DNA from: Verrucomicrobiaceae bacterium
GTDB taxonomy: Bacteria > Verrucomicrobiota > Verrucomicrobiia > Verrucomicrobiales > Verrucomicrobiaceae
Length of the DNA stretch: 64,000 bases
Direction of reading: 5' to 3'
NCBI GenBank assembly: GCA_027490195.1
Contig: JAIXYN010000053.1
Span: 62,001-126,000 of the forward strand
Shown: piece by piece, positions 5,451 to 23,573 of the stretch
How positions within the stretch are numbered: position 1 is the first letter of the stretch
How the letters are laid out: each line of letters starts with the position of its first letter
The notes under the pieces: generated by a model
Database searches by the model: none
Told to the model about the DNA's origin: nothing
What the model saw: the letters and a program-made list of their open reading frames with translations, nothing else
Made by a program: the position numbers and the translations under genes

Positions 5451-5568
5451 GCAACGCCCTGAAGTGCAGATTCGCTCTTCACCGCCTGAATACAGCTCCG
5501 GCACCCGTTGGAGTTTCGAGGATCTAGAAACGAAGTTCCAGCTGCTGCGCTGACGTGTTCGAGGGCGA

Positions 5569-9321: not shown

Positions 9322-11456
<2,135 letters not shown>

Positions 11457-12355: not shown

Positions 12356-12637
12356 ATGGCCAAGAGCGGAGCCGAACGCTTCCTCATGGGCCTGCGCATG
12401 CACGAAGCCGCCCGACGCATGGCCATGGCCCCTTTCCCCTCAGGCACCAGTGATTCAGAGAGGCACCGCCTTCTGCATGAGCGATTTTTTGGTGGCATGG
12501 CAGCTTCTACTGGAGCACTCTATTCTTCTTCGCAGACCTCGGCGCAACTATCTGCCCCCTTCACCCTTGACGTCGTAGTCCCTGTTTTTGAATCTCGCTT
12601 AGTGAAGCGACATCGACAAGACCGCTATGAGCCGTAA
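12356..12637 (+). pseudogene. remnant of a small conserved protein
   Basis: The frame reads MAKSGAERFLMGLRMHEAAR, then RMAMAPFPSGTSDSERHRLL and HERFFGG. It resembles small proteins of the pattern SGAERMRMGxxMFExAR...LASFP...LRRRLYERFYG seen in many bacterial genomes. In-frame residues before 12356 (SDTSADIAALVHTRL) also fit that family but have no ATG/GTG/TTG after the stops at 12251 and 12257, so the natural start seems lost. After about 12495 the resemblance ends and base composition drops toward that of the KAP gene, so the 3' part is probably foreign. It overlaps the KAP start by 11 bases. Confidence 0.35.
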
Positions 12638-14867
12638 AAAGCAGCACAGATACTCGTCCGACCAACCAATTACCAAACTGCCAGATGACAAACTGGGTCG
12701 GAGTTCGTTTGCTAACCGTTTGGCCGACGATATTGCCGCTTGGGATGGTGACAGTTCTTTGGTGATTGGACTTTACGGTGACTGGGGAACCGGCAAAACG
12801 TCCTTAAAGAATCTTGTTTTGGCAGCATTCAAACAGCGCAGAAAGAAAATTCCACTCCTCGAATTCAATCCATGGCAACTGTCAGGTTCGGGTGGGATCT
12901 CACAGACCTACTTCAATGAGCTAAAGATCATGCTAGAGTCCGATACCGTTTCTCACAAGCATGATAAAGCAGAAGCAAAGGAACGCTTATTAAAATACTC
13001 AAAGCGGCTCGCCTTTGGGGGCATTGCCGGGCGCATGTTTAGCGGGCTTTTGGCGGTTCTTGGACAGTCGGAAGATGCTGCTGCCACTGCGGCAGTCGCG
13101 AACGCGTTCAGCGATGCAGCCGAAATCACAAAATCAGGCAGTGAAGCCGTAGATTCAAAATCAGAACCGGGAAACTTGTCCCTGTCTGAACTGAAGAAGT
13201 CATTGGACGAATCCCTGAGGAGGCTAAAGCAGCCTCTGCTTGTTGTGGTTGATGACATTGACCGCCTTACTCACCGCGAAATACTCGACGTGTTTCAACT
13301 TGTTAAAGTTAACGCCGATTTTCCGAGAGTAATCTACTTGCTACTTTTCGAAAGAAATATCGTTTCAGCGGCATTGGACTCGATTTCGAATGGCCGCGGC
13401 AACGACTTTCTCGAAAAGATAGTTCAGGTTGGCTACCACATTCCACGAGCATCAAGAGCGTCGATTCAAAAAGTCCTATTTGGTGGCCTTGACGAGATAT
13501 TGGCTGAACCTGGTGTATCGCGACGTTGGGACAAAAATAGGTGGTCTCATGTTTATCTAGATGGGTTGCAAGGGTTTTTCCGCAATCTCAGGCATGTTTA
13601 TCGGTTTCTGTCATCTTTCGACTTTCACGTGCGTCAATTTCAGAAACGAGATCATTTCGAAGTCAATCCAATAGACCTCATAGCCATCGAAACGCTGAGG
13701 GTCTTCGAGCCAAAGGTTTTTGAGCGCATACCGAGCTTGAAAACGCTTCTGACCAGAGATGTTGGCAAGTCGCTTTTTGGAGGAATCAAACAAAACGAGA
13801 TAGATGCAGCAGTAAATGACTTGGTGCTGCAATCCGCTGAACCCAACCGCAGTTCGGTTCGACACCTTATTGAAGGCATTTTCCCTTCAATCAATAGTTC
13901 ACACGCCGGTGAAAGCGGGATTGAAGGCCAGTATTTACAAGGATGGCTGAAGGACGCAAGAGTGTGTCACCCGAATATGTTTGACCGATACTTCGCCCTC
14001 GCGGTTGACGAAGGTGAAGTGGCTCAAACCGAACTAGATCAATTGATTGATGAATCAGGTGATCCTTCGGGCTTCTTCAAACGCATGCGTGCATTGCAAG
14101 ATCGCGGATTGATGAATCTTGCATTCGAGCATTTGGATGCCTGCAAGGACACACTTCCGTTGCAAAATATGACAGCTCTAATCCAAGGGCTGTCGGACTT
14201 GAGTGATTCATTCCCTCCAACTGGAACGGGCATGTTTGACACTGCAACAAGAGGGATGGCTGCTAGACTAATCTATTTCGGGCTAATTCGCGAAAAGGAC
14301 CAGTCGCAACGACTCAATGTGCTAGTTGATGGATTCACCAAATCATCGGGGACTCTTTTACCTGTCTACGTGACCTCGCTTCAGGAGCGTCGAAAATCAG
14401 AATCCAACCGAGAACGAGACTATTTGGTAAGCGAGAGTGATTGGAGTGTTTTGCGTTGCTTAAGCCTAAATAAGATCAGCGAAGCAGCTGAGTCAGGATC
14501 GATGATGCGCCATCCGGAAGCAAGTGTCCTACTTTGGCGTTGGCACGACTGGGATCCTACCGCCGCGAGGCTTTGGATTTCTAAGCAGATTCAAAATCAC
14601 AAGGGCGCACTTTGGTTTTTGGCAGTCTTACTGGGTGAAGTACATTCACATGGTGACGAGCTAACTATCCAGTATTATATAAAGCTCAGCAGCATCGAAC
14701 AGTTCACAGACATTGGGTCACTTCAAAATGCTCTTTCCGACATTAATTTGAATACAGCTAGTGACAGGGAGCGCATTGCGGTAAAAGAATTTGGGAGGGC
14801 CACGAAAAGACGAGCTGAAGGCAAACCCGAAACTGATGGTTATGAGCAAGGGTTCGATAATGATTAG
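12627..14867 (+). CDS. KAP family P-loop NTPase
   Basis: 746 aa. Walker A GDWGTGKTS is at residues 51-59, and a hydrophobic strand ending in DDIDRL (about 205-213) is Walker B. LLFERNIV and the later Trp/Arg-rich helices fit KAP NTPases (Pfam KAP_NTPase), STAND-like ATPases that include the phage-exclusion protein PifA. The usual inserted transmembrane pair is reduced to one moderately hydrophobic stretch near 130-147. Codon use and AT content differ clearly from the GC-rich neighbours (TTG, AAA and GAT are frequent), which suggests recent transfer. The ~400-residue C-terminal helical region is not recognisable. A defence role is plausible from family and context but unproven; no partner gene is evident. 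Confidence 0.85.
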   Translation: MSRKKQHRYSSDQPITKLPDDKLGRSSFANRLADDIAAWDGDSSLVIGLYGDWGTGKTSLKNLVLAAFKQRRKKIPLLEFNPWQLSGSGGISQTYFNELKIMLESDTVSHKHDKAEAKERLLKYSKRLAFGGIAGRMFSGLLAVLGQSEDAAATAAVANAFSDAAEITKSGSEAVDSKSEPGNLSLSELKKSLDESLRRLKQPLLVVVDDIDRLTHREILDVFQLVKVNADFPRVIYLLLFERNIVSAALDSISNGRGNDFLEKIVQVGYHIPRASRASIQKVLFGGLDEILAEPGVSRRWDKNRWSHVYLDGLQGFFRNLRHVYRFLSSFDFHVRQFQKRDHFEVNPIDLIAIETLRVFEPKVFERIPSLKTLLTRDVGKSLFGGIKQNEIDAAVNDLVLQSAEPNRSSVRHLIEGIFPSINSSHAGESGIEGQYLQGWLKDARVCHPNMFDRYFALAVDEGEVAQTELDQLIDESGDPSGFFKRMRALQDRGLMNLAFEHLDACKDTLPLQNMTALIQGLSDLSDSFPPTGTGMFDTATRGMAARLIYFGLIREKDQSQRLNVLVDGFTKSSGTLLPVYVTSLQERRKSESNRERDYLVSESDWSVLRCLSLNKISEAAESGSMMRHPEASVLLWRWHDWDPTAARLWISKQIQNHKGALWFLAVLLGEVHSHGDELTIQYYIKLSSIEQFTDIGSLQNALSDINLNTASDRERIAVKEFGRATKRRAEGKPETDGYEQGFDND

Positions 14868-14960
14868 CCAAAGCCTTTCCAATGGCCACAAACCAAGGAG
14901 GGCGTGGATGAGGACAGAATATCTGACAAACGGTCAAGTCCCGCGCGTTCCCTCTTCCCC

Positions 14961-15215
14961 ATGAACCTCCGCTTCCTCACCCTGGCCAGCCTTCTCACCG
15001 CTGCCACCTTGGCCGCTGATGCGCCGAAGCTTCCCCCGATTCCCGCAGAGCCGACGGCTAAGAAGAAGGAGCTGCTCTTTTCCGATGACTTTGAGCGGGC
15101 GGAGCTGGGCAAGGACAAGGGCTGGGCCATTGGGGGGCCGACGTTTTCGGTGGAGAATGGCGCGCGGACTCTCGCCGCACTGCGGAGACAATTCAGCTTT
15201 CCCGAAGCCGTCTGA
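14961..15215 (+). pseudogene. truncated DUF1080-like secreted protein (5' remnant)
   Basis: 84 codons beginning MNLRFLTLASLLTAATLAAD, a signal peptide, then LPPIPAEPTAKKKELLFSDD. This matches the start of the complete paralogue at 28588 (LPKIPSKPIAEKKELLFSDE). Similarity continues to about VENGA and then stops, replaced by sequence that terminates after AALRRQFSFPEAV. The paralogue is 249 aa, so about two thirds of the gene is missing. The break lies directly before the YhcG-like gene, as if that DNA had been inserted or recombined in. Confidence 0.7.
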
Positions 15216-15236
15216 TCGCGCTACTCTGACGGAGCC

Positions 15237-15866
15237 ATGCCCGCCAAGCCCAAGCCTCGCACGCTCGCTCCCAAACCCGCCGCCCCTGCCGCGCCGCTGC
15301 TTGCGGATGTGCGCGATCTCATCCTCACGGCCCGCGAAGCCGTTGCCCGGACCGTCAACGCAGGTCTGACGCTCCTCTATTGGGAGATCGGCACTCGCAT
15401 TCGCCGGGACATTCTCCAAGAGAAGCGCGCAGGCTATGGGGACGAAATTTTGCAGTCACTGTCTGCAAAATCGGAAGCGGAGTTTGGCCGTGGGTTTGGT
15501 GAGCGGAACCTAGCGCGGATGGTGAAGTTTGCAGAGGCTTTCCCCGATCCGAACATTTTGACCGCACTGCGGACAAAATTGGGCTGGACGCATTTCCGTC
15601 AGATCATCTACCTCGACAACCCGCTCCAACGCGACTTCTACGCCGAGATGTGCCGCATGGAAAACTGGAGCACGCGGACGCTGGAGCAGAAGATCAAGAG
15701 CATGCTCTACGAGCGCACGGCGATCTCGAAGAAGCCGGACAAGCTCATCAAGCAGGAACTCGCCGCCCTGCGTAGCGAGGACAAGCTCACGCCCGACCTC
15801 GTCTTTCGCGATCCCTACATCCTCGACTTCCTCGGGCTGAAGGACACCTATGCGTCAAGACTTTGA
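15237..15866 (+). pseudogene. YhcG/DUF1016 nuclease, C-terminally truncated
   Basis: 209 aa. Residues ~25-190 are the DUF1016 N-terminal domain: LTLLYWEIGTRI, GYGDEILQSLS, FGRGFGERNLARMVKFAEAF, GWTHFRQII and MLYERTAISKKP. Family members (E. coli YhcG) run to about 340-370 aa and carry a PDDEXK nuclease domain C-terminally. Here the reading frame ends five residues after the very conserved DPYILDFLGLKDTY, exactly where the duplicated palindromic element begins, so the nuclease domain is lost. YhcG relatives are often found with restriction and mobile loci. The remnant could still fold but not cut DNA. Confidence 0.8.
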
Positions 15867-16213: not shown

Positions 16214-16452
16214 CGGTAAGCGGTGCGGTAGGGGGGGCAAGATTCACAACGCGAATGGCCGCGAATATCCACGAATTTGCAGGAATCATGAACCGGGGAT
16301 ATTCGCGAAAATTCGCGGTCATTTGCTCACATTCGTGTTCAAGAAATCTTCCTCAAGTCCCCCGGCCTCGCCCATTGCCCACCCGACGAAACCCAAGGAA
16401 CTCGCGCGATGGTTTCGATTGAGAATTCTCACATTTCGTGCATTTTTCGTGC

Positions 16453-16692
16453 ATGGCCACAAAGACGATCACCTTGGAGCTCGATGCCTACGAGAAGCTG
16501 CGGCAGGTCAAACGTGGGGGGGAATCCTTCACGGAGGTCGTGCGCCGGGCGGTCTGGCTGGATGCCCCCGCCACGGGCGAAGGTCTGCTCCAGCACTTTC
16601 ACAACGGCGGGAGCGGCATCTCTGACAAGTATCTGGACGCGGTGGAAAAAGCAGCCCAGCACGACCCCATTCCCGACGATCCATGGGCCTGA
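16453..16692 (+). CDS. VapB-type antitoxin
   Basis: 79 aa, starting MATKTITLELDAYEKLRQVK, the ribbon-helix-helix N-terminus of the VapB antitoxins related to UPF0330/DUF217. These dimerise through the short beta strand and bind their own promoter, while the C-terminal tail blocks the toxin. SFTEVVRRAVW is the second helix. ATG 16453 is chosen; the frame opens at 16438 but the five extra residues are not typical. Its stop lies inside the toxin gene (10-base overlap), so the pair is coupled. Confidence 0.82.
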   Translation: MATKTITLELDAYEKLRQVKRGGESFTEVVRRAVWLDAPATGEGLLQHFHNGGSGISDKYLDAVEKAAQHDPIPDDPWA

Positions 16693-17075
16693 TCCTCGAC
16701 ACGAACTTCATCATCGTGGCCGAGCGCGAGGCGAAGCGCGGGGTGACGACCACCATCGACCGATTCTTCGCCAGCCGAACGAAGGAGACTTTTTACATCA
16801 CCTTCACCGTGGCGGGCGAACTGGCCTGCGGTCAGTCGGCAAGCCCCAAGAAGGACTGGGAGCGCGTGTGCCGCCCCTACCCGATCCTGCCCTGGACCAA
16901 CGAAGTCTCCTGGCAGTGCGGTGAAATCTACCGGGCACTGACTGCGAAAGGACAACTGATCGGCACCAACGAAATGTGGATCGCCGCCACGGCGCTGGTA
17001 CACGGCATGGGTGTGGTGACAAACAATGTCGAAGAGTTCAATCGCGTGCCCGGCTTGACGGTGGTCGCGTATTGA
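16683..17075 (+). CDS. VapC-type PIN-domain ribonuclease toxin
   Basis: 130 aa PIN-domain toxin. The first acidic residue is Asp6 in LDTNFI and the second Glu46 in AGELACG. The third position, usually Asp in an NDxxIAA motif, is Glu97 in TNEMWIAATAL; a late TNNVEEFNRVPGL stretch completes the fold. VapC enzymes cut tRNA or rRNA using Mg2+ held by these acids, so activity is likely though the Asp-to-Glu change may weaken it. It starts within the antitoxin gene. Convergent with the phosphoesterase gene 21 bases downstream. Confidence 0.85.
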   Translation: MGLILDTNFIIVAEREAKRGVTTTIDRFFASRTKETFYITFTVAGELACGQSASPKKDWERVCRPYPILPWTNEVSWQCGEIYRALTAKGQLIGTNEMWIAATALVHGMGVVTNNVEEFNRVPGLTVVAY

Positions 17076-19606: not shown

Positions 19607-19627
19607 CCCCCGTTGCGCCGCAACGGG
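19607..19627. repeat. CCCCGTTGCGCCGCAACGGGG palindrome
   Basis: Near-perfect palindrome after the FKBP gene; possible terminator without a T-run. Related palindromes with core AGTTGCG...CGCAACT lie at 19655-19675, 21932-21950 and 21977-21997. Confidence 0.8.
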
Positions 19628-19654
19628 GCTGAGGTCGAGCGGATTGGTCTCAGG

Positions 19655-19675
19655 TCCAGTTGAGGCGCAACTGGA
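19655..19675. repeat. TCCAGTTG palindrome (REP-like)
   Basis: TCCAGTTG-AGG-CGCAACTGGA, an imperfect copy of the same palindromic family found beside other genes in this region. Confidence 0.7.
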
Positions 19676-19726
19676 CGACTTGATGCCGATCTTCAGCACA
19701 AGAAATTTACAGATTGTTTCAGCCCG

Positions 19727-19753
19727 TGTCACAAAACCGAGGCCTCACTCGTC
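19727..19753 (+). promoter_or_regulatory. ECF41-type promoter
   Basis: TGTCACA (19727-19733) and CGTC (19750-19753) are separated by 16 bases. From memory this is the -35/-10 consensus described for promoters of the ECF41 sigma group. It lies 45 bases before the cupin ATG, whose operon includes the ECF41 sigma gene itself, so the site fits autoregulation. Confidence 0.75.
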
Positions 19754-19798
19754 AGGACTGGTGAAGGGAAAACTCCCTGACCAACCCACACCCCACCC

Positions 19799-20212
19799 AT
19801 GAAACCATCGTCTCTCATCACCGCCACTCTTGCCCTGCTCGTCCTTGCGATTTCCGCCCTTCATGCCGAAGAACCGCCAGTGACGATCACGGAGATCTTC
19901 AAGCAGGCTCATCCCGAACTGAAGGACAAGGAGATCGTCGTCAAACGCATCGAGCTGCAACCCGGTGTGGCAGCGCCCCCGCACGTGCATCCCGGCATGG
20001 TGACGGGCTACGTGCAGCAGGGCCTTTTTGAGTTTCAGATCAAAGGCGGACCGCTGCTAAAACTGAAGGCGGGCGATGTCTTCTTTGAGCCTGCAGGCAG
20101 TGTTCACGTGGTCGGCAAAAATCCCGGCACGGAAAAGACGATTCTCATCGCCTTCGTGGAAAATCCGAAGGGCGCGCCGCTTTCGACACCGGTGGAAGAA
20201 CACGGCAAATAG
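19799..20212 (+). CDS. secreted cupin-domain protein
   Basis: 137 aa. A Sec signal peptide (MKPSSLITATLALLVLAISA) precedes a single cupin barrel. The metal-binding histidines are in APPHVHPG (HxH) and SVHVVG, and a glycine-rich turn lies in KLKAGDVFFEPAG. Small exported cupins often bind a metal and may detoxify or sense a reactive compound; the reaction is not known. It directly follows the ECF41-like promoter and sits 37 bases before the sigma factor gene. In other bacteria ECF41 sigma genes are paired with small oxidoreductase, decarboxylase or cupin genes that they control. Confidence 0.85.
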   Translation: MKPSSLITATLALLVLAISALHAEEPPVTITEIFKQAHPELKDKEIVVKRIELQPGVAAPPHVHPGMVTGYVQQGLFEFQIKGGPLLKLKAGDVFFEPAGSVHVVGKNPGTEKTILIAFVENPKGAPLSTPVEEHGK

Positions 20213-20249
20213 AGAGCCCTGGATTTCTTCGACGGACGGCCTTGGACGG

Positions 20250-21191
20250 ATGACCGTCCGGGGCCAATCCATTCGACAGACAGAAAAGCACTGGCCAGAT
20301 AACCTCCCAGCCGCGACGACCTTGATCGAAATCTTCAACACCCACCGGCCAGCGCTCTTCGGCATCGCCTACCGGATGCTCGGGCGCGTGTCTGAGGCGG
20401 AAGACCTGATGCAGGAGGTGTGGCTGCGCTGGCAGAAGCAGGAGGCAGCAGAGATCGAGTCCCCGAAGGCATGGCTGGTCGCCGCCACTACGCGGCTGTG
20501 CATTGATCAACTGCGCTCGGCACGGCATGTGCGTGAGCAATACTACGGCGTGTGGTTGCCAGAGCCTCTGGTGGCGGCGGCGGACGCCGCGCCAGACCAC
20601 CTGGCAGATCTGACCGACTCGCTGAACATGGCCTTCATGATGATGCTGGAAACCCTCGGCCCGGTAGAGCGCGCGGTGTTTCTCCTGCACGAGGTCTTTG
20701 ACTACAGCTATGCAGACACAGCGGCCATCGTCGGCAAAAGCGAAGCCAACTGCCGGCAGATCATCCGACGGTCCAAGGCCAGCCTGCAGACCACTCCCGC
20801 AACTACCCAGCCCCCCAACGACCAGGCGCGGCGCGTGGTAGAGCAGTTTGCCCATGCCACCTCAACGGGGCAGATTGATCAACTGCTGGATCTACTGATG
20901 GAGGACGTCACAGTCTACAGCGACGGCGGCGGCAAGGTGAAGGCAGCCGGGCTGCCAATCCGCAGCGCTGACCGCGTGAGCCGCTTCTTTATCGGCATCC
21001 AGCGGCTGCTCCCCGCTGACATTGCCTGCAAGTTTGCCACCATCAATGGCATGCCGGGGATGCTCATGATCTCTGGCGGCCAAATCTACAGCGCGTATTC
21101 ATTCGACCTCGTGAGTGGCCGCGTGCGGAATATGTATGGCATCTGGAATCCGGAAAAGCTGCGGCATCTGGCGGGCTTTGCTCTGAGTTAG
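20250..21191 (+). CDS. sigJ: ECF41-family RNA polymerase sigma factor (SigJ-like)
   Basis: 313 aa. Region sigma2 covers about residues 25-95 (FNTHRPALFGIAYRMLGR, EAEDLMQEVWLRW), and sigma4 covers about 130-185 (PVERAVFLLHEVFDYSYADT, IVGKSEANCRQIIRRSK). A SnoaL-like C-terminal domain of about 110 residues follows, ending in the NPEKL motif (YGIWNPEKLRHL). A fused C-terminal domain in place of an anti-sigma factor defines ECF41, and the WLPEPL linker motif between sigma2 and sigma4 is also present. Start: ATG 20250 overlaps a GGACGG/CCGTCC inverted repeat; a TTG at 20322 is possible. Cotranscribed with the cupin. Confidence 0.92.
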   Translation: MTVRGQSIRQTEKHWPDNLPAATTLIEIFNTHRPALFGIAYRMLGRVSEAEDLMQEVWLRWQKQEAAEIESPKAWLVAATTRLCIDQLRSARHVREQYYGVWLPEPLVAAADAAPDHLADLTDSLNMAFMMMLETLGPVERAVFLLHEVFDYSYADTAAIVGKSEANCRQIIRRSKASLQTTPATTQPPNDQARRVVEQFAHATSTGQIDQLLDLLMEDVTVYSDGGGKVKAAGLPIRSADRVSRFFIGIQRLLPADIACKFATINGMPGMLMISGGQIYSAYSFDLVSGRVRNMYGIWNPEKLRHLAGFALS

Positions 21192-21213: not shown

Positions 21214-21885
21214 TCACTTCCCTTCCCACAGCCGAATTGAGTCAATCTGGCAGGTGCCGAAATCGACGGCTTTGAAGTCGATCTGGGCCTGACCGGTCAT
21301 GTCGATGTTCTGGCTTTCAAAGACATGCTTCTTGCCGTCGATCTTGAGCAGGATGGTGCCTTTTTTCAGCTCGATGACCACCTCATGCCATTGGTTCAGC
21401 GCAAAGAGCGGCTCTTTAACGGGGAGGGTCTCGACATTCTTTTTGAGGGTCAGCGTCGTGGCTTTTTCGCTGAAGCTGAGCGTGTGGATGTGGTGGCCGA
21501 GATCGAAGAGCGGAAAACCTTTCTGGTAGGTCGTGGCATCGTAGCGCACACGCATGGAGCAGACGAAATTCTCAGGCACCTTGCGCAGCCAGATCACGGG
21601 CTTCAGCCCCGCGTGAGAGGGGTCATCGCTGGCTTTCTTCTTCTCCTGAAACTCCTTGGAGGAAGGGCTACCCGTGAGCACACCGTCTTTCACCGCCCAC
21701 GTGGTGCTCTGCCGCACCTCCCAGAACTCCGTGTTCAGTGGGCCGTCGAAGTTGTCCGAATAGACCAGCTTGAGGCTCTGAAACAGCTCCGGCTTGTATT
21801 CCGCATCCCCCGTCTGCGCATGGGAGGGTAGGACGGTGAAGGTGAAAGCAAAACACAGGCCGATTAGACGAAGAGGTGTGGTCAT
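21214..21885 (-). CDS. secreted DUF1080/concanavalin-like protein
   Basis: 223 aa. After a signal peptide (MTTPLRLIGLCFAFTFTVLP) the mature protein has the jelly-roll strand pattern of DUF1080/laminin-G-like domains: LVYSDNFDGPLNTEFWEVR, WAVKDGVLTG, FVCSMRVRYD, WHEVVIELKKGTILLKIDG and IDSIRLWEGK. Such domains bind or act on polysaccharides in Planctomycetes and Verrucomicrobia. It is a distant paralogue of the genes at 28588 and (broken) 14961. The frame extends upstream to 21969, but ATG 21885 begins the signal peptide. It is divergent from rlmN; two AGTTGCG palindromes lie between them. Confidence 0.8.
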   Translation of the reverse strand: MTTPLRLIGLCFAFTFTVLPSHAQTGDAEYKPELFQSLKLVYSDNFDGPLNTEFWEVRQSTTWAVKDGVLTGSPSSKEFQEKKKASDDPSHAGLKPVIWLRKVPENFVCSMRVRYDATTYQKGFPLFDLGHHIHTLSFSEKATTLTLKKNVETLPVKEPLFALNQWHEVVIELKKGTILLKIDGKKHVFESQNIDMTGQAQIDFKAVDFGTCQIDSIRLWEGK

Positions 21886-21931
21886 GATGGGCTGTAACGT
21901 GAAAGACGCGCGGAGATTTCGCCGAAGTTGA

Positions 21932-21950
21932 CCAGTTGCGCCGCAGCTGG
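21932..21950. repeat. CCAGTTGCGCCGCAGCTGG palindrome
   Basis: Imperfect palindrome of the same family as at 19607, 19655 and 21977; lies between divergent genes. Confidence 0.7.
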
Positions 21951-21976
21951 GTCGGGGAGGGCGGATCACAGAGAAC

Positions 21977-21997
21977 TCCAGTTGCGGCGCAACTGGA
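21977..21997. repeat. TCCAGTTGCGGCGCAACTGG palindrome
   Basis: Near-perfect palindrome 23 bases upstream of the rlmN ATG; fourth member of the dispersed family in this window. Confidence 0.7.
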
Positions 21998-22020: not shown

Positions 22021-23115
22021 ATGTCCTTGACCAACCGCCCATCGCGCCCACTGCCCGATCTCTCTGCCGAGGAGCTGGGCACGTGGCTGGACGCGCAGGG
22101 ATTCAAAGCCTCCCATGCACCGCGCGTGCTGCGCAACCTCCTCGAAGTCCACGGAGATCAAAACAAGGAGCACCCGGGCATGCTTCTGCCCGCAGATCTC
22201 TCCCAGCGTCTGCAGTCCGAATTTCCCACTGCAGCAGCGAGCCTCGCGATGCGGCAGGTGTCTGAAGATGGCACTGCGAAGCTGCTGCTGCGCCTGCATG
22301 ACGGCCGCACGGTGGAGTCGGTGCTGATGCCGGACTTCCACCCGGAGCGTGCAGCAGGCTGCATTTCCAGCCAGGTGGGCTGCGCCATGGGCTGTGACTT
22401 CTGCGCCACCACGCAGACCGGCTTTGAGCGAAATCTCACCTCCGGCGAGATCGTGGAGCAGTTCATCCACCTGCGCCGCGAGGCACGCGCCGCTGACCGC
22501 ACGCTGCGCACCATCGTCTTCATGGGCATGGGCGAGCCGATGCTGAACCTGAAAAACGTGCTCGCCGCAGTGCAGCGCATCGCCGCGCCCACGCTTGGTG
22601 CGTTCGGCTGGCGGCAGATCACCATCTCCACCGTGGGCATCGTGCCCGGCATTGATGAACTGCGTGAGGCAGATCTCGGCGTGCATCTCGCGCTGTCTCT
22701 GCATGCGCCCGATGATGCCACGCGTGCTGATCTGCTGCCGATGGGCAAACGCTTTGATGTGCAGGACGTGCTCGCTGCCGTGGATCGTTATCAGGCCAGC
22801 AGCGGCCGCATCACCACCATCCAGTACTGCCTGCTCGATGGCGTGAACGATTCACTCGCGCAGGCGCGTGATCTGTCGCGTCTGCTGGAAGGACGGCGCA
22901 TGCATGTGAATCTGCTGCGCTACAATGCCACCGGCCTCAGCCTGCGTGGCCGCACCTATGCACCCAGCAGCATGGAGCAAACGGAAGCCTTCCTCGCCGA
23001 ACTCCGCGCCCATGGCACCGTGGCCCATCTGCGCCGTGCACGCGGGCCGGACATCGATGCAGCATGCGGCCAGTTGCGGAAGCGCGAGGCGGCGCATACT
23101 TCTTCAACTCCATGA
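22021..23115 (+). CDS. rlmN: dual-specificity 23S rRNA/tRNA methyltransferase RlmN
   Basis: 364 aa radical-SAM enzyme that methylates C2 of A2503 in 23S rRNA and A37 in some tRNAs. The cluster motif CAMGCDFC gives Cys121, Cys125 and Cys128. Other RlmN blocks are IVFMGMGEPMLNLKNV, ISTVGIVPGI, LALSLHAPDD and IQYCLLDGVNDS, and a late cysteine in DAACGQLR is the catalytic methylated residue. All required residues are present. ATG 22021 fits the family N-terminus; the frame upstream is not conserved-looking. Its last codons overlap the next gene as ATGA, a coupling arrangement. Confidence 0.95.
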   Translation: MSLTNRPSRPLPDLSAEELGTWLDAQGFKASHAPRVLRNLLEVHGDQNKEHPGMLLPADLSQRLQSEFPTAAASLAMRQVSEDGTAKLLLRLHDGRTVESVLMPDFHPERAAGCISSQVGCAMGCDFCATTQTGFERNLTSGEIVEQFIHLRREARAADRTLRTIVFMGMGEPMLNLKNVLAAVQRIAAPTLGAFGWRQITISTVGIVPGIDELREADLGVHLALSLHAPDDATRADLLPMGKRFDVQDVLAAVDRYQASSGRITTIQYCLLDGVNDSLAQARDLSRLLEGRRMHVNLLRYNATGLSLRGRTYAPSSMEQTEAFLAELRAHGTVAHLRRARGPDIDAACGQLRKREAAHTSSTP

Positions 23116-23573
23116 ACCCTGTTCAAGGCTTCCATCTCATCACGCCAGATGATCTCACCTGGCGTCTGTCGAATCTCATGCGCATCCCGAACGCAGACTT
23201 TCTGGAGCGCACCGGCAGCGAAAACATGGGCGCACGTTTGTGGCGCATGCCGCCCATGAGCGCGAACACGCTTCACAAACACATCCGCGCCGAGGAGTTT
23301 TATTTTGTGCTCGAAGGCACAGGCCGCATGCGCGTGGGCGATGAAACGCTCACCGTGCCCAAGCATGGCGGCGTCCACGTCGGGCCGGATCAACTGCGCC
23401 AAGTGTTTAACGACACCGCCGAAGAAGTGCTTTGGCTCATCATCGGCGCACCTGAAGAAACCGAATTTCTCCCCGGGGCCGCGACCAAGCCCGACCTGTC
23501 GCTCGTTTATCCCACCGATCCCAAGCAGTTGCCCAAGGAACTCGCAGGCGCGCAGTGGCCGCCGAAGGAGTGA
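23112..23573 (+). CDS. cupin-domain protein
   Basis: 153 aa with no signal peptide, hence cytoplasmic. The cupin motif 1 histidines are in LHKHIRAEEFYFVLEGTG, with a glutamate in the usual spacing, and motif 2 lies in HGGVHVGPDQLRQVFN. The barrel is similar to uncharacterised cupin_2 proteins and sugar-isomerase-like cupins; a metal site is likely but the reaction is unknown. ATG 23112 overlaps the rlmN TGA by four bases (ATGA), which usually means reinitiation by the same ribosome. Confidence 0.85.
   Translation: MNPVQGFHLITPDDLTWRLSNLMRIPNADFLERTGSENMGARLWRMPPMSANTLHKHIRAEEFYFVLEGTGRMRVGDETLTVPKHGGVHVGPDQLRQVFNDTAEEVLWLIIGAPEETEFLPGAATKPDLSLVYPTDPKQLPKELAGAQWPPKE

Follow-up and report, generated by a model that had tools for sequence, protein, structure and literature searches.

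Within the 64-kb window, by which we mean the whole stretch of DNA that was analysed, a promoter motif, a small cupin gene and a sigma factor gene follow one another on the forward strand as a compact unit of ∼1.5 kb (19727-21191, window coordinates). As originally predicted, a TGTCACA element (-35, 19727-19733) and a CGTC element (-10, 19750-19753) are separated by a 16-bp spacer, and this site (19727-19753) lies 45 bp ahead of the cupin ATG at 19799. The cupin gene (19799-20212) encodes a protein of 137 amino acids and the sigma factor gene most likely occupies positions 20322-21191. The genes around the sigma factor encode an FKBP isomerase, the cupin and a protein without a Pfam family. 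Pfam searches of the neighboring genes revealed no classical anti-sigma gene beside the sigma factor, in agreement with the original prediction. Nor is a COE neighbor (CMD or oxidoreductase) adjacent to the unit; such a neighbor is usual but not obligatory, and is missing from ∼30% of ECF41 loci (PMC3426412). Loci related to this one do carry COE genes. The locus had also been described as a compact stress-response unit. Promoter, target and sigma factor are indeed compactly arranged, but nothing in the sequence points to a role in stress.

The sigma factor contains sigma2 (PF04542, E 4.5e-16) and sigma4 (PF08281, E 3e-12) domains according to Pfam, a WLPEP linker motif (GVWLPEPLV) that is kept in the orthologues, and the DGGGK and NPEKL motifs in a C-terminal extension, a region that in ECF41 factors spans ∼100 amino acids. 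It matches both NCBIfam TIGR02957 (SigX4) and SigJ PRK09636 above cut-off and aligns nearly full length with Mycobacterium tuberculosis SigJ (residues 26-303 against 9-296 of PDB 5xe7, E 9e-49). Judged by these matches, it is a sigma factor of the ECF41/SigJ type. The predicted combination of sigma2, sigma4 and a fused SnoaL-like domain ending in NPEKL was recovered except that Pfam did not report the SnoaL-like part: SnoaL_2 scored 14.7 (homologues 21.2 and 20.8), and because this is below the gathering score of 27, the assignment of a SnoaL-like domain rests on the full-length homology to SigJ. An AlphaFold model, run together with three orthologues, had a mean pLDDT of 41 and was not used for the fold. 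In two same-genus orthologues, the sequence ahead of TTG 20322 diverges in this frame and has no ATG corresponding to 20250. Since the TTG is common to the orthologues and the ATG is not, translation probably starts at TTG 20322. The 37-bp gap between the two genes that was first reported assumes ATG 20250, and becomes 109 bp with the shared TTG. The sigma factor is under purifying selection (dN 0.03-0.06, dS 0.31-0.35, dN/dS 0.10-0.18).

The partner gene was predicted to encode a secreted cupin, and the Cupin_2 match (Pfam, E 2.4e-13) together with a signal-peptide-like N-terminus favors this prediction. Cupin motifs 1 and 2 are matched by an HVH sequence and GDVFFEPAGSVHVVGKN; motif 1 shows no clear sign of its customary Glu ligand, and the motifs make a metal site of three histidines plausible. 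The product is probably a metal-binding exported protein. By analogy with the usual roles of cupins and COE enzymes, one guess is that its substrate could be a small compound, either oxidised or aromatic. Purifying selection appears weaker than on the sigma factor, as judged from the comparison with the same-genus orthologue in G021 (dN 0.08, dS 0.28, dN/dS 0.29). In the other same-genus orthologue, G038, a 49-bp deletion breaks the cupin frame (L046, ∼10130-10491) next to an intact sigma gene; either G038 may do without the cupin, or this is an assembly error. About 2 kb past the sigma gene of the window lies another, distinct cupin gene (23064-23573) that has no ECF41-type site.

Taken alone within the window, the promoter match is weak evidence. 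It is the single TGTCACA-N16-CGTC match in 64 kb against 0.22 expected by chance, and 18 of 100 shuffled windows held at least one, which are the figures one would cite for a chance match. Such a match would nevertheless not be kept in position and sequence in orthologues, nor recur consistently across a phylum. The -35 element is identical in both same-genus orthologues, and over the whole site 27/27 (G038) and 25/27 (G021) bases agree while the DNA farther upstream has diverged. Among 32 Verrucomicrobiota ECF41 loci, which share ancestry and are therefore not fully independent, 22 had a matching site on the sense strand within 2 kb upstream, compared with none antisense and one within 2 kb downstream; shuffling these loci gave a mean of 0.6 sites and a maximum of three in 60 rounds. 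The spacer was 16 bp in 21 of the 22 upstream sites with 15-17 permitted. TGTCAC is present in all of them because the search demanded it, and the base that follows is A in most. No recognisable site was found in the remaining ten loci, mostly distant paralogues. The original prediction had named conservation of the motif in orthologous loci as a check, and this check was passed; its promoter pattern also fits the published ECF41 consensus (PMC3426412). This conservation, in orthologues and across the phylum, makes the call convincing: an ECF41-type promoter is well supported by comparative sequence data, and a chance match is exceedingly unlikely. We infer that the promoter is active and that cupin and sigma gene are co-transcribed.

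The host genome contains 11 matches when spacers of N15-17 are allowed, nine of them inside longer reading frames and two intergenic. Only the two intergenic sites have an N16 spacer: the cupin-sigma site and one in L011 that precedes a metallo-hydrolase gene by 22 nt. The latter was considered as a second target and rejected as a chance occurrence, since its -35 element is not conserved in G021, G038 and G034. With this site set aside, the best reading of the sequence data is that the sigma factor has one target operon, as published for ECF41.

The cupin (at E 1e-15) and the sigma factor (at 1e-50) were each found in 9/68 genomes of the family, and the two genes adjoin in only part of these. 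Two same-genus genomes, G034 and G059, have both flanks of the unit, the FKBP-type isomerase gene and the gene at 21217-21888, directly adjacent, the segment 19682-21212 being missing; the break in G034 corresponds to window positions 19681/21216. Four intergenic palindromes of the type CCAGTTGCGGCGCAACTGG flank the unit and the next gene (19609-19674 and 21932-21996), giving eight strand matches in four places with at most three mismatches, against 0.15 expected. A copy similar to CCAGTTGCGGCGCAACTGG is found at the empty site in G034. Elsewhere in the window, a VapB-like antitoxin and PIN-domain toxin pair is located at 16438-17075, and a KAP-family NTPase gene with a nearby DUF1016 N-terminal domain gene at 12627-15866.

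Three genomes from the host's family and order (G060, G061 and G313) carry a larger operon, NmrA/epimerase-cupin-DoxX-ECF41, in one direction behind one promoter of the TGTCACA-N16-CGTC type. The NmrA/NAD-binding and DoxX genes were assigned by Pfam, DoxX just over the cut-off, and the cupins and sigma factors are 63-66% and 62-65% identical, respectively, to those of the host unit. In a tree of 37 sigma factors, the trio of host, G038 and G021 falls within a clade with 99/98 support, and the other four members of this clade all retain NmrA: the three operons above and G154, which has NmrA and the sigma gene without a cupin. The simplest reading of this distribution is that NmrA was lost in the trio. 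However, the tree was rooted at its midpoint and leaves the branching order inside the clade uncertain, and the direction (loss rather than gain) is for that reason only inferred. Searches with NmrA and DoxX (tblastn) gave no significant match to coding remnants of either gene in the 64-kb window, and DoxX was not found anywhere in the host genome. A search for the cupin in genome contigs returned three relatives, two of them matching G021 and G038, as well as an epimerase-cupin pair in Chthoniobacteraceae with no sigma gene and no convincing promoter nearby. None of three plasmid-borne cupin matches that were examined had an ECF41 gene near it. Caballeronia sp. NK8 (L060) carries ECF41-CMD-cupin in one direction, and there a TGTCACA-N16-CGTC sequence (∼5458-5484) lies after the cupin, 33 nt before the start of a LysR-type gene.

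Four cupins had already been reported in ECF41 operons (Wecke 2012, PMC3426412), and the cupin is a regular member of the larger operon in the relatives. The original description of a cupin as an effector not commonly described for ECF41 consequently has to be corrected, and the cupin is more likely a remnant than a newly recruited effector. The reverse order of events would have the cupin recruit the sigma factor and promoter as a new minimal unit, with the larger operons gaining NmrA and DoxX later, and the unit does sit like an inserted cassette between two genes that directly adjoin each other in G034 and in G059. Yet the sigma factor nests among NmrA-associated factors, including that of G154 with NmrA and no cupin, and the leader of the host cupin resembles the start region of an NmrA gene. 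The absence of the unit from G034, the nearest compared genome as judged by one protein, also fits loss there. We consider recruitment unlikely, and the cupin-sigma unit is most likely what remains of an NmrA-cupin-DoxX-ECF41 operon, as far as gene content and phylogeny indicate.

Three further loci have an ECF41-type site without an adjacent sigma gene: cupin-DoxX in G019 (L048), NmrA-cupin in G245 (L058) and a cupin in G520 (L102). Other ECF41-like factors are encoded elsewhere in G019 and G245, so that control in trans is possible there, and the arrangement of the three loci suggests either such control or loss of the sigma gene. These loci also bear on whether the cupin could be part of signal sensing rather than an effector, by analogy with ChrR, an anti-sigma factor that has a cupin-like domain. 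The cupin does match the ChrR cupin-like family of Pfam weakly (27.9, cut-off 27), and it adjoins the sigma gene apparently under one promoter. Nevertheless, matches to five cupin families overlap here, that to Cupin_2 being far better, the protein has a signal-peptide-like start and lacks a zinc anti-sigma domain, and the cupins or cupin operons of G019, G245 and G520, which follow an ECF41-type site but have no neighboring sigma gene, are placed as a target would be. Moreover, COE proteins had no signaling role in the two organisms tested (PMC3426412). A sensing role is accordingly quite improbable, and we retain the cupin as putative effector.

In Sinorhizobium meliloti the ECF41 transcript begins 9 nt after CGTC (PMC3616915), which would place the predicted transcription start of the host unit at 19762 on the forward strand. 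A start codon, counted if it opens an ORF of at least 90 amino acids, lies within 13 nt of CGTC in 19/23 Verrucomicrobiota sites, compared with 8.7% of CGT[CT] sites taken at random from these loci. The binomial probability of ∼1e-16, computed for 19/24, makes the pattern look stronger than it is, because the loci share ancestry and the range of offsets was set once the data had been seen. Start codons this close to CGTC imply that Verrucomicrobiota ECF41 promoters would drive leaderless mRNAs. The host cupin is an exception, with a 45-nt leader and no clear Shine-Dalgarno sequence. This leader is similar to AGCACTGGTGATGAACACTCC, the region where NmrA starts in G061, and is perhaps the scar of a lost NmrA start. 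It contains a possible 13-codon ORF (GTG 19761 to TGA, 19761-19802, forward strand) whose stop overlaps the cupin ATG; G038 has the same leader, and in G021 the ORF is in frame with the cupin. It is conceivable, though we hold it only tentatively, that these mRNAs are normally leaderless, and that deletion of the first gene fused the cupin to a leaderless start, so that what is left of it is a relic ORF at GTG 19761, coupled to the cupin by stop and start codon (in frame in G021). If so, trimming of the operon would have rewired translation of the target while the promoter was kept. The coupling should be interpreted with caution since GTG starts on leaderless mRNAs are reportedly inefficient (PMC3616915).

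Previous reports indicate that the C-terminal extension of Ecf41 controls the sigma factor (PMC3426412, PMC8999054). By homology, the fused SnoaL-like domain would set the activity of the host sigma factor without a separate anti-sigma factor, its ligand state changing the engagement of sigma with RNA polymerase. Active sigma would then transcribe the gene of the exported cupin together with its own, resulting in positive feedback, and the loss of NmrA and DoxX from the ancestral NmrA/epimerase-cupin-DoxX-ECF41 operon would have left the cupin as sole effector. Overall, we regard it as very probable that an ECF41 sigma factor under C-terminal domain control activates its own cupin-sigma operon from one promoter, and that this operon was trimmed from NmrA-cupin-DoxX-ECF41.

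The unit is ordinary in kind, and what it adds is a trimmed gene set. It adds a Verrucomicrobiota unit with a cupin alone to the known range of the ECF41 design, with the promoter rule kept across the phylum, and is a plausible instance of an operon under its own control being reduced to one effector. With a single effector left, it also narrows the search for the ECF41 signal, and the start-codon spacing provides a testable prediction of leaderless transcripts for these sigma factors. A literature search for ECF41 joined with DoxX found no paper. With the ECF41 group, represented by the Ecf41 proteins from Bacillus licheniformis and Rhodobacter sphaeroides and by RpoE9 from S. meliloti, the unit shares the order sigma2-WLPEP-sigma4 followed by a C-terminal extension, the TGTCACA-N16-CGTC promoter, a target gene upstream of the sigma gene in the same direction, the lack of an anti-sigma gene and apparently a single target operon. 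It differs from that group in having no carboxymuconolactone decarboxylase, oxidoreductase or epimerase, a probably exported cupin being the only partner. Homology to M. tuberculosis SigJ (PDB 5xe7) is near full length and includes the C-terminal extension, although the two are distant in sequence. The closest counterpart is the operon of G060, G061 and G313, which has a homologous cupin and sigma factor and the same promoter pattern, but from which the host unit differs by the absence of NmrA and DoxX and by a 45-nt cupin leader in place of a start codon near CGTC.
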